From contig DUPL01000023.1 of the NCBI GenBank assembly GCA_012838385.1, positions 62,001 through 126,000 of the forward strand: DNA of 64,000 bases, written 5' to 3'. Of the stretch, positions 50,836-54,229 are shown piece after piece. Under the pieces are notes generated by a model, which was not told where the DNA came from, did no database searches, and was given only the letters and a program-made list of their open reading frames with translations. Numbering within the stretch: the first letter of the stretch is position 1; every line of letters starts with the position of its first letter. This DNA comes from Clostridiaceae bacterium. Lineage in GTDB: Bacteria; Bacillota; Clostridia; UBA1212; DUPL01. A program made the position numbers and the translations under genes.

Positions 50836-51612
50836 GTGAAAATACTTTTTATTGGGGACGTATTCGCACGTCCGGGACGTCAGGCACTAAATCTCTGGCT
50901 TAAAGATCTAATAAGCGAGCATGATATTGACTTTTGCATTGCCAACGGCGAAAATGCGGCACACGGAAAAGGTATCACAAAGCAAACTGCAGATGAAATA
51001 TACGCTAGTGGTGTGGATTTCATCACACTTGGAAACCATGCTTGGGGACAGAAAGATACTCTTTCGTTCATCGATGACTTCCCAATTGTAAGACCAGCAA
51101 ACATGTCAAAATCTCTTCCCGGCAAAGGCTGGTGTATTGTCAACACAAACAAGGGAGACATAGGCATTTTGAATCTTCAAGGGCGTGTCTTCATGGACCA
51201 TGTGGACAATCCCTTTGAATGTGCCACTGAATGTCTTCATGAAATGCGCCAGTATACAAATATCATTGTTGTGGATTTTCATGCGGAGGCCACGTCTGAA
51301 AAAATCGCATTGGCGCTGTATATAGACGGATTGTGTTCCTGCGTAATTGGCACCCACACTCATGTCCAGACAGCGGATGAACGCATTCTCCCAAACGGCA
51401 CTGCCTTCATTTCCGATGCCGGAATGACCGGACCAATACACAGTATAATTGGCATGGACATAAAATGTGTAATGGAGAAGTTTGTTCGCTCCATGCCTAC
51501 AAGATTCGAACCTGCAAAAGGCAGCTTTATGCTGAACGCTGTTGTAATAGATATTTGTGACAATTCAGGAGTTGCCAAAGATATCTACAGGATTTTTTTG
51601 AAACAAAGCTAA
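50836..51612 (+). CDS. ymdB: YmdB-type metallophosphoesterase
   Basis: A 258-residue dinuclear-metal phosphodiesterase of the TIGR00282/YmdB group, which in B. subtilis controls the biofilm/motility switch and has cAMP phosphodiesterase activity. The motifs are IGDVFARPGRQ (Asp), NGENAAHGKG, GNHAWGQKD, DFHAEATSEK and GTHTHVQTADE, giving the usual Asp/Glu/Asn/His ligands. GTG is the start, preceded by AGAAAGG. It is followed by spoVS and rny, the same neighbours as in Bacillus, but with rny reversed. Confidence 0.92.
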   Translation: MKILFIGDVFARPGRQALNLWLKDLISEHDIDFCIANGENAAHGKGITKQTADEIYASGVDFITLGNHAWGQKDTLSFIDDFPIVRPANMSKSLPGKGWCIVNTNKGDIGILNLQGRVFMDHVDNPFECATECLHEMRQYTNIIVVDFHAEATSEKIALALYIDGLCSCVIGTHTHVQTADERILPNGTAFISDAGMTGPIHSIIGMDIKCVMEKFVRSMPTRFEPAKGSFMLNAVVIDICDNSGVAKDIYRIFLKQS

Positions 51613-51614
51613 AG

Positions 51615-51655
51615 TCGGGAAATATTCAACTTGCCTAACTTTAGAATTTTCCCTC
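51615..51655 (+). terminator. Possible terminator after ymdB
   Basis: GGGAAATATTC (51618-51628) pairs with GAATTTTCCC (51644-51653) with one bulge across a 15-base loop, followed by a T-rich tract (TCCATTATTTATT). The poly-U is broken, so termination may be partial. Confidence 0.5.
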
Positions 51656-51727
51656 CATTATTTATTCATAAATAACGATATGATGCATATATATGTACCA
51701 CAAACACCCCACTATTTTGGGAAATAA

Positions 51728-51756
51728 TTGTATTGCTACATGTTTTTATTTAGAAT
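51728..51756 (+). promoter_or_regulatory. Promoter of spoVS
   Basis: -35 TTGTAT (51728-51733), 17-base spacer, -10 TAGAAT (51751-51756), 47 bases before the spoVS ATG. In B. subtilis spoVS is sigma-H controlled; I see no properly spaced sigma-H element here. Confidence 0.55.
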
Positions 51757-51802
51757 ATATAAAAACAATCAAAAAATAAAAAAATAATGGAGGGTACATA
51801 TT

Positions 51803-52084
51803 ATGGATGTATTAAAGGTATCAGCAAGATCAAATCCAGCTTCAGTAGCAGGTGCATTGGCAGGTGTTATCAGGGAAGTAGGTTCTGTCGATGTGCAGGC
51901 AATCGGCGCAGGTGCAATTAACCAGGCAATAAAGGCTATAGCAATTACCAGAGGGTATTTGGCTCCGACTGGAATCGAATTGGTATGCATGCCCGCTTTC
52001 GTTGACGTTTATCTTGAAGGCGAGGAACGTACGGGCATCAAACTTCATGTTGAAAGAAGAAATTATAGGGGTTATTGCGGATAA
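51803..52084 (+). CDS. spoVS: Stage V sporulation protein S
   Basis: A 93-residue Alba-like small DNA/RNA-binding-fold protein. MDVLKVSARSNPASVAGALAGVIREVG and GAGAINQAIKAIAITRGYLAP are near-invariant in the family. It influences septation and progress through sporulation in B. subtilis. The last residues (ERRNYRGYCG) form a short extension. ATG has a GGAGGG site. It is convergent with rny across a shared terminator. Confidence 0.96.
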   Translation: MDVLKVSARSNPASVAGALAGVIREVGSVDVQAIGAGAINQAIKAIAITRGYLAPTGIELVCMPAFVDVYLEGEERTGIKLHVERRNYRGYCG

Positions 52085-52107
52085 CCCAAAAAATTAGAAA
52101 CATACTT

Positions 52108-52144
52108 AAAAAAGAGAGTGAATCAATCACTCTCTTTTTTGTTT
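52108..52144. terminator. Bidirectional terminator between spoVS and rny
   Basis: Perfect 14-bp stem AAAAAAGAGAGTGA and its complement (52108-52121 and 52127-52140) with a 5-base loop and T/A tracts on both sides. Confidence 0.9.
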
Positions 52145-52149
52145 TCAAA

Positions 52150-53745
52150 CTATTTTGCGTATTCTACTGCTCTTGTTTCCCGTAAAATCGTTACTTTGAT
52201 TTGTCCAGGATATTCCATTTCACTTTCAATCTTCTTAACTATCTCTCTTGCCTTCAAAGGCATTTCCTCATCACTGACAAGTTCCGGCTTAATCATAATT
52301 CTGATTTCTCGCCCAGCCTGAATCGCATAAGTTTTTTCAACGCCACTGAAGGAATTCGCTATTTCCTCGAGTTTCTCTAGTCTCTTGATATAAGTCTCGA
52401 GAGTTTCGCGTCTTGCACCAGGCCTTGCTGCTGATATTGTGTCTGCAGCTTGTACTAGTACAGCAACTACGCTTTGCGGTTCAATATCTCCATGATGTGA
52501 CATTATGGCATTTACAACATCAGGCGACTCTTTACACTTCTTGGCTATGTCTGCACCTATGGTTACATGCGAGCCTTCAATCTCGCTGTCCAGAGCCTTG
52601 CCTATGTCGTGTATCAAGCCGGCTCTTTTTGCCAAAGCTACGTCTACACCCAGCTCTGCAGCCATGACACCTGCCAGTTTAGAAACTTCAATTGAGTGCA
52701 AGAGAACGCTTTGTCCATAGCTGGTCCTGAACTTCAGTCTGCCCAGAAGCCTTACAATTTCAGGATGAAGCCCATACACACCAGTTTCGTATGTAGCGTT
52801 CTCTCCTTCCTGACGGATGACATTGTCTACTTCCTTTCTCGCCTTCTCTACCATTTCTTCGATTCGGGCAGGATGTATTCTACCGTCAATGATCAGCTTC
52901 TCCAGAGCTATCCTAGCTATTTCTCGTCGAATTGGATCAAAACTTGATAGAATAACAGCTTCAGGTGTGTCATCTATGATCAGATCAACTCCAGTCAATG
53001 TTTCAATGGTCCTTATGTTTCTGCCCTCCCTACCTATGATTCTGCCTTTCATGTCATCATTAGGTAATGCGACAACAGATACAGTCGTTTCTGAAACATA
53101 GTCAGATGCACATTTCTGTATAGCCGTTGCTACTAAGTTCTGTGCCAAAACAACACATTCCTCTTTCAGTTTCGCTTCGTAATCCTTGATAAGTGTTACT
53201 TTTTCCTGAATCAATTCGTTTTCAGTAAGTCTTAGCAAATATTCCTTTGCTTCATCTTTCGTCAAATTTGCGATACGTTCGAGTTCTTGGACTTGTTTGT
53301 TGAACATTTCCTCTACGTGTTTTTCACGTTCGTTAAGTTCAAGCATTCTTTCATTGAGCATACGCTCCTTTTGTTCCTGCGCATCCTGCTTTTTCTCAAG
53401 CAACTCTTCTTTCTGAATCAAACGTCTTTCATTTCTCTGTATCTCGTTTCGTCTATCTTTAATTTCCCTTTCAAGATCAATTCTACTTTTGTGAATCTCT
53501 TGCTTGGCAGTGAGCAAATACTCACGCTTCTTTATTTCACTTTCTTTAATTGCTTCACTAATAATTCTTTTGCCTTCCGCTTCGGCGCTTTCTATAACCG
53601 CTTCTGCTTCTTCTTTCCTGGCTTGATAACCCTTAGCAAAAGATCTTTTTGAGGCTATTTTCCAACAAATTAAGCCAACTAGTGAACTGAAAACTAAAGG
53701 GACGACTATGAATAGAATAATATCGCTAGTTCCTATACCGAACAC
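52150..53745 (-). CDS. rny: Ribonuclease Y
   Basis: Membrane-anchored endoribonuclease that starts mRNA turnover in many Firmicutes. The 531 residues have an N-terminal span (about 6-24), a long coiled coil (about 35-200), a KH domain ([16 protein letters not shown]) and an HD domain with [10 protein letters not shown] and [32 protein letters not shown] holds GxxG. It has a strong promoter at 53907-53879, and a leader with two hairpins whose DNA dyads lie right after the start of transcription. Confidence 0.97.
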
Positions 53746-53803
53746 CTCCCTTATTTAGTTGTCAAGGTACTCATATTTATCTGAACAACTTAAATTCTTC
53801 TAA

Positions 53804-53869
53804 ATGCACAAAATGAATTGTATGCACTTTATGCATTTTGTGCATATTATGCATTGTGCATAATATGCA
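53804..53869 (-). repeat. Tandem perfect inverted repeats in the rny leader
   Basis: Two perfect dyads lie side by side. The first is TGCATATTATGCA (53841-53853) with its complement at 53857-53869. The second is ATGCACAAAATG (53804-53815) with its complement at 53834-53845. They share 53841-53845, so the two hairpins compete at one base. Short TGCAT/ATGCA motifs recur at least seven times. The predicted start of transcription is near 53872, so both dyads are transcribed 60-125 bases ahead of the rny start. Confidence 0.85.
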
Positions 53870-53878
53870 TCACAGTTA

Positions 53879-53907
53879 ATTCTAAATAAAAAGATAATAT
53901 TTGTCAA
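53879..53907 (-). promoter_or_regulatory. Promoter of rny
   Basis: -35 TTGACA (53907-53902), 17-base spacer, -10 TAGAAT (53884-53879). It leaves a leader of about 125 bases before the rny ATG. Confidence 0.75.
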
Positions 53908-54049: not shown

Positions 54050-54229
54050 GAACATAACGGAAGGCGTATTTCATACAATCCTCAATCTGAGCAGTTTAGA
54101 CTCCCCGATGACGGAATAATGAAGGAAGTTACAATAGAACAGTATGAAAATGGCAAAGCCAGAGTAACATTCAATATTACTCATACCCCCTACAGTGATA
54201 ATCAGTCAAGAAAACACCGTTACTATTGA
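54050..54229 (+). pseudogene. Remnant of an unrecognised gene between rny and folD
   Basis: A plus-strand frame from about 54050 reads HNGRRISYNPQSEQFRLPDD, GIMKEVTIEQYENGKARVTF and NITHTPYSDN without a start codon or SD. Near 54200 the frame becomes poor (SRKHRYY, stop at 54229), while a shifted frame continues protein-like as SQENTVTIEFKHIFVQKKFY into a terminator. This looks like the 3' end of a gene with a frameshift and a lost 5' half. The family is not recognised. The rest of 53910-54050 is AT-rich with nothing else visible. Confidence 0.4.

Follow-up and report, generated by a model that had tools for sequence, protein, structure and literature searches.

The RNase Y gene of a clostridial genome carries tandem hairpins in its leader and probably initiates translation at AUA

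The rny gene, which encodes RNase Y, is located on the minus strand of the 64-kb window, i.e., the whole stretch of 64,000 nucleotides from a Clostridiaceae genome that was analyzed. The sequence elements of the gene and its leader, listed below, can be read directly from the DNA, with predicted and proposed roles worded as such.

52150 to 53745, minus strand: rny open reading frame (ORF) as delimited by the ORF caller, with the Pfam domains RNase_Y_N, KH, and HD
52150 to 53736, minus strand: rny coding sequence counted from the proposed AUA, 528 amino acids (start-codon reading and Pfam domains)
53734 to 53736, minus strand: AUA, proposed here as the rny start codon and placed 8 nt after GGAGG
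53743 to 53750, minus strand: Shine-Dalgarno (SD) sequence GGGAGGTG, including the GTG at 53745-53743 taken as the start by the ORF caller
53752 to 53770, minus strand: boxA-like element GTACCTTGACAACTAAATA, with one base between its end and the SD
53764 to 53772, minus strand: GAGUACCUU, predicted by folding to close the ribosome site through pairing with the SD region AGGUGUUC
53802 to 53871, minus strand: 70-nt block of the 9-bp repeat RTGCAYNNN, about eight units, one of them of 7 bp (reading, TRF, and alignment)
53802 to 53838, minus strand: hairpin 2 in its RNA form, with the arms 53822-53838 and 53802-53818
53841 to 53869, minus strand: hairpin 1, 13-bp stem and 3-nt loop, 1 to 3 nt from the predicted 5' end
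53879 to 53907, minus strand: sigma-A type promoter, TTGACA-17-TAGAAT (11/12 matches; identity with the congener)

The rny promoter, with TTGACA at 53907-53902, a spacer of 17, and TAGAAT at 53884-53879 on the minus strand, is near consensus, and its hexamers and spacer are identical in the congener G001. Its position and its 11/12 match predict a transcript start at about 53872, which agrees with the first-pass annotation in letting the transcript begin beside the inverted repeats described below. In the window's genus, rny faces ymdB and spoVS in convergent orientation (window 50836-53745; locus L011 in the congener); in other Bacillota the three genes are usually collinear. Between folD and rny, a short open stretch on the plus strand (54058-54229, ...KEVTIEQYENGKARVTFNITHTPYSDNQSRKHRYY) has no counterpart in the congener and resembles what is left of an inserted gene. 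An Rfam search of the 64-kb window at the gathering score returned tRNA alone, with no known cis-regulatory RNA matched, and a search of the plasmid collection gave 0 matches.

The repeat block starts 1 to 3 nt past the predicted 5' end and reads, on the transcript strand, ATGCATATT ATGCACA ATGCATAAT ATGCACAAA ATGCATAAA GTGCATACA ATTCATTTT GTGCATTTA, in which TRF finds tandem repetition at a period of about 9 bp. As the first-pass annotation had described, it holds two perfect inverted repeats sharing five bases: a 13-bp dyad (arms 53841-53853 and 53857-53869, 3-nt loop), corresponding to hairpin 1, and a 12-bp dyad (arms 53804-53815 and 53834-53845, 18-nt loop), with 53841-53845 common to both; a recount also reproduced its figure of at least seven copies of TGCAT/ATGCA. 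The two dyads belong to one repeat block, because the array has a 9-bp unit that is largely self-complementary. Specifically, the 12-bp DNA dyad is an alternative register to RNA hairpin 2; RNA folding offers stem 2 a separate stem of 14 to 16 bp, and since stem 2 can shift, the RNA stems need not compete for the five shared bases. The predicted fold of the leader reaches -37.4 kcal/mol, compared with -21.4 ± 3.0 kcal/mol for shuffled sequences (z = -5.4; 0 of 200 as good). Two of the five distinct perfect inverted repeats in the window (arms of at least 12, loops of 3 to 20) are located at the rny leader, and the RTGCAYNNNRTGCAY pattern occurs at nine places in the 2.57-Mb genome, four of them in this leader, a reversed control pattern at none.

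Conservation within the genus was judged against a single genome, that of the congener (97% protein identity at its rny locus), and two genomes are a thin basis for comparison. The 56 leader nucleotides after the hairpin block are the same in both (0 differences). The repeat block of the congener is 16 nt shorter, with six units instead of about eight, and its hairpin 1 comprises 6 bp instead of 13 bp. Despite 10 substitutions in 37 nt, hairpin 2 of the congener retains 15 of 17 pairs, against 16 in the window genome; the pair changes consist of two double compensations, two one-sided changes, one gained pair, and two broken pairs. This retention is above chance (P about 0.007), as random mutation at the same sites equals it in 0.7% of trials, and the divergence of hairpin 2 is RNA-like. 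Because pairing was kept through so many substitutions, the repeat block, although fast-evolving, looks in these two genomes like an RNA under selection for pairing. Beyond the genus, the stems are not conserved, the outcome that the first-pass annotation had named as refuting its reading: the rny leaders of the order and class relatives examined lack these two hairpins, and in many order relatives a single TGCATTT persists as part of a weaker stem. Order-wide conservation of both hairpins was consequently rejected, the relatives sharing just this TGCAT-containing weak stem, and the hairpins appear to be genus-specific 5'-end structures. A short ORF runs through the 9-bp repeats (window 53776-53853, minus strand) and ends with HLEEFKLFR in both congeners. 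That this frame encodes a leader peptide (MHNMHKMHKVHTIHFVHLEEFKLFR in the window genome, MHVMHEMRKVLKEHVVHLEEFKLFR in the congener) was rejected as improbable, since almost every codon difference changes the amino acid and the frame has no SD.

Several readings of the hairpins were weighed. The repeat could be a functionless, drifting 9-bp minisatellite whose hairpins arise automatically from the self-complementary unit; the change in copy number from 8 to 6 and the 10 substitutions in 37 nt, compared with none in the next 56 nt, would suit such drift, but hairpin 2 has compensatory changes that are non-palindromic and that the unit does not account for, which leaves this a rather unlikely, if credible, reading. 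It is unlikely that the hairpins form an RNase E-type autoregulatory element bound by RNase Y. They are structured, lie at the 5' end of rny, and keep their pairing in the congener, and rny of Bacillus subtilis is autoregulated; however, they are unconserved beyond the genus, and in B. subtilis the control works by cutting the 5' UTR, which is AU-rich, and the early ORF, a mode that was set against the stem-loop model of RNase E (PMC10303841). The autoregulation through the leader that had been suggested initially thus has a precedent in B. subtilis, but one that works by cleavage and not by hairpin binding, and the hairpins are limited to the genus. Quite improbable is a third reading, in which a repressor or activator would bind the TGCAT dyads as DNA operators where rny transcription starts. 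Four overlapping RTGCAYNNNRTGCAY sites, about half of the genome's total, do lie at +1 to +70, and one site of this type is kept in the congener (ATGCATGTTATGCAT), but of the five RTGCAY dyads elsewhere in the genome, four are inside long ORFs, so that no regulon is apparent and a TGCAT regulon was rejected; the repressor on the DNA dyads proposed in the first-pass annotation is unsupported on the same count. Moreover, hairpin 2 diverged in a way that keeps RNA pairing and loses TGCAT (GTGCTC/GAGCAT). A CcpN operator was likewise rejected, its consensus appearing not to fit.

The conserved control features of rny appear, from the comparison of relatives, to lie downstream of the hairpins, namely, the SD, the boxA-like element, and the near-cognate start codon. 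The boxA-like site is the sole exact YTTGAMAAYTRAATA match in the window's genome, and it resembles the rRNA boxA GTACCTTGAAAACTGCATAA of a class relative (G053), a cross-genome comparison since the window's assembly has no 16S. The recurring form, TTGA(A/C)AA(C/T)TAAATA, mostly lies 18 to 22 nt upstream of the SD core and was found in 14 of 28 rny leaders of the order set (0.5 expected) and at 30 of 80 rny loci of the genome contigs (1.3 expected); upstream of the control genes it was absent (infC, 0/30; recA, 0/29). In a phylum sample of rny just 4 of 70 carried it, and a universal boxA element of rny was rejected for this rarity. The segment GAGUACCUU overlaps the boxA-like element, and in a single-sequence prediction for the window genome the SD is closed, the AGGUG bases having unpaired probabilities of 0.05 to 0.09 and opening costing about 6 kcal/mol. 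Mean SD accessibility was 0.37 for rny genes with AUH and 0.25 for those with canonical starts, compared with 0.46 for infC and 0.53 for recA, a modest difference.

Related arrangements were seen elsewhere. In Lachnospiraceae rny loci, e.g., L061, L091, and L102, the SD lies within a small hairpin, GGAGGTGCTCC, just before a GTG start, and a boxA-like ACAATGAAAACTAAATAA is located upstream of this hairpin. At four further loci (L147, L148, L149, and L151), a boxA-like TTTGACAACTGAATA or CTTGAAAACTAAATA lies at about position 1500 of the match strand, and behind it comes an element similar to GCC(A/G)AGACC...GGGCGAGCG, at some of the loci near Rfam pemK or dinG RNAs; together these may represent boxA-led non-coding RNAs of one family.

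In the window genome, the SD itself contains a GTG, the sole canonical codon that is in frame near it, and the 59 codons downstream of the proposed AUA contain no ATG, GTG, or TTG. A weak near-cognate start behind a very strong SD is best known from infC. The survey of this feature covered about 190 clostridial rny genes, a nonrandom sample, of which 157 have a clear SD. Sixty-three of the 157 show no ATG, GTG, or TTG 5 to 11 nt after GGAGG but have ATA, ATT, or ATC at 7 to 10 nt; 60 remain once three loci with ATG or TTG at the next codon are removed, and these are spread over many clostridial families. The ATH codon is positioned exactly 8 or 9 nt after GGAGG in 54 of the 63. At 24 loci the stretch from the in-frame stop (often a TGA overlapping the SD) to the ATH codon contains no canonical codon at all, and at 30 the nearest upstream canonical codon is just the GTG within the SD. 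Among the strong-SD loci with no canonical start, ATH was found at a spacing of 7 to 9 in 56 of 75, compared with an Ile-codon background of 0.22 (codons 2 to 13). The extended SD, GGAGGTG(A), recurs across clostridial rny genes, and the absence of a canonical start together with a properly spaced codon extends to isolates, with ATA in Lutispora thermophila, Caldanaerobacter subterraneus, and Romboutsia maritimum and ATT in Anaerosalibacter massiliensis and Maledivibacter halophilus. As a positive control, infC showed the near-cognate architecture in 27 of 29 cases from the same genomes and starts with ATT in both the window genome and its congener; the negative controls recA (0/18) and ymdB (0/14, with SD) lacked it, and spoVS had ATG in 33 of 33. 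On a quick FastTree phylogeny of the RNase Y protein, the near-cognate start clusters with the tree, requiring 15 changes versus 33 after shuffling (0 of 500 as low). From this sequence pattern we conclude that translation of the window's rny very probably initiates at AUA 53736-53734. Initiation at GTG 53745, with the AUA as an ordinary Ile codon, is open and in frame but very improbable, as this GTG overlaps its own SD with zero spacer, 24 relatives have no canonical codon upstream of the ATH, and infC in the same genomes has a matching near-cognate layout.

The weak start is not essential to rny, since many relatives use ATG or GTG: family f2 of the window's order has mostly canonical starts (ATG or GTG), and Lachnospiraceae rny has GTG 7 nt after GGAGG, with the GGAGGTGCTCC hairpin. 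As a separate observation, ymdB, a frequent neighbor of rny, has ATT by position at 7 of 47 loci; at L163, L165, and L166, the ATT lies at the expected start behind AGGAGGAG, and a canonical codon is missing over a span of 4 codons.

The new part of this analysis is the start-codon finding, more than the hairpins. An open-access literature search, with subscription papers mostly outside its scope, retrieved no paper on RNase Y and an AUU, AUA, or AUC start of its own gene and none on boxA in an rny leader. We give about even odds to the broader proposition that RNase Y is a widespread, apparently unreported AUA/AUU/AUC-start gene whose level is tied to IF3 and, in some lineages, to Nus and S10. 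In many Gram-positive bacteria, RNase Y determines globally how long mRNAs last. If the proposition is true, the level of the main decay-initiating RNase of Clostridia would be tied to initiation fidelity, i.e., the IF3 level, and in some lineages the boxA-like element would tie rny to Nus factors and free S10, joining mRNA decay with ribosome supply. A weak start kept across many clostridial families would offer a simple and testable account of how the RNase Y level is limited and could explain how the enzyme stays scarce. In addition, rny would be a large new case on the short list of non-AUG-start genes, and gene callers limited to ATG, GTG, and TTG would misplace the RNase Y start in such genomes.

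Taken as a whole, we consider it moderately likely that the rny leader limits output at both translation initiation and mRNA stability. The strong promoter would yield an mRNA that opens almost immediately with the tandem hairpins, which would shield it from 5'-dependent decay by RNase J1 and by RNase Y acting on 5'-monophosphate ends, the ends that RNase Y prefers; such protection by the 5'-terminal hairpins is a tentative proposal, somewhat short of an even chance. The strong SD would recruit ribosomes and would be closed by the upstream segment overlapping the boxA-like (NusB/S10-type) site, with SD closure in vivo suggested by the folding model and Nus binding a putative role of the site. 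Ribosomes would have to initiate at AUA, a weak near-cognate codon for which the strong SD would compensate, and rny expression would depend on ribosome occupancy of the leader. Under slow initiation, RNase Y and RNase J1 would gain access to the leader, and rny mRNA would be lost, as in B. subtilis. By this analogy, autoregulation by RNase Y in the window organism could equally well hold or fail.

Among known systems, E. coli RNase E reportedly controls its own mRNA through 5' leader hairpins. Like rny, rne is thus an RNase gene whose mRNA carries leader hairpins, but the enzyme families differ, and the hairpins of the window's rny, compared in two genomes, are not conserved beyond the genus. 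In B. subtilis, the same gene has a 164-nt leader and a very strong SD, among the strongest in that genome, which RNA structure can close. There, RNase Y cuts its own mRNA in the 5' UTR and within the first ~100 nt of the ORF and so reduces the amount of this mRNA, RNase J1 is apparently stopped by initiating ribosomes, and this cleavage model was contrasted with an RNase E-type binding to an uncleaved leader stem-loop (PMC10303841). It differs in that AUC was used there as a start just as a mutation and that leader hairpins were not shown to be needed, and autoregulation depended little on ORF translation, which counts against the mechanism proposed here (PMC10303841). In Staphylococcus aureus, infC (AUA), ccpN (AUA), and cvfC1 (AUU) start behind extended SDs, and the reporters tested gave ~10% of AUG in poor medium; ccpN and cvfC1 share the extended SD and noncanonical start with rny but are different genes, and that paper does not mention rny (PMC13009471). 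As cited in a passage of PMC9410913, an AUU start limits E. coli pcnB, likewise an RNA-metabolism gene, although it encodes poly(A) polymerase and belongs to another phylum. The mRNA of E. coli suhB carries a boxA-like element a few nucleotides from the SD, as in rny (PMC5725501), in a different phylum and a different gene, and a role of Nus factors at the rny site is putative. A feedback loop of the IF3 type would not be direct for rny, because RNase Y is not an initiation factor; in its layout, infC (IF3) of the same genomes likewise has AUU, AUA, or AUC 8 to 9 nt after GGAGGTG(A) and no canonical start.
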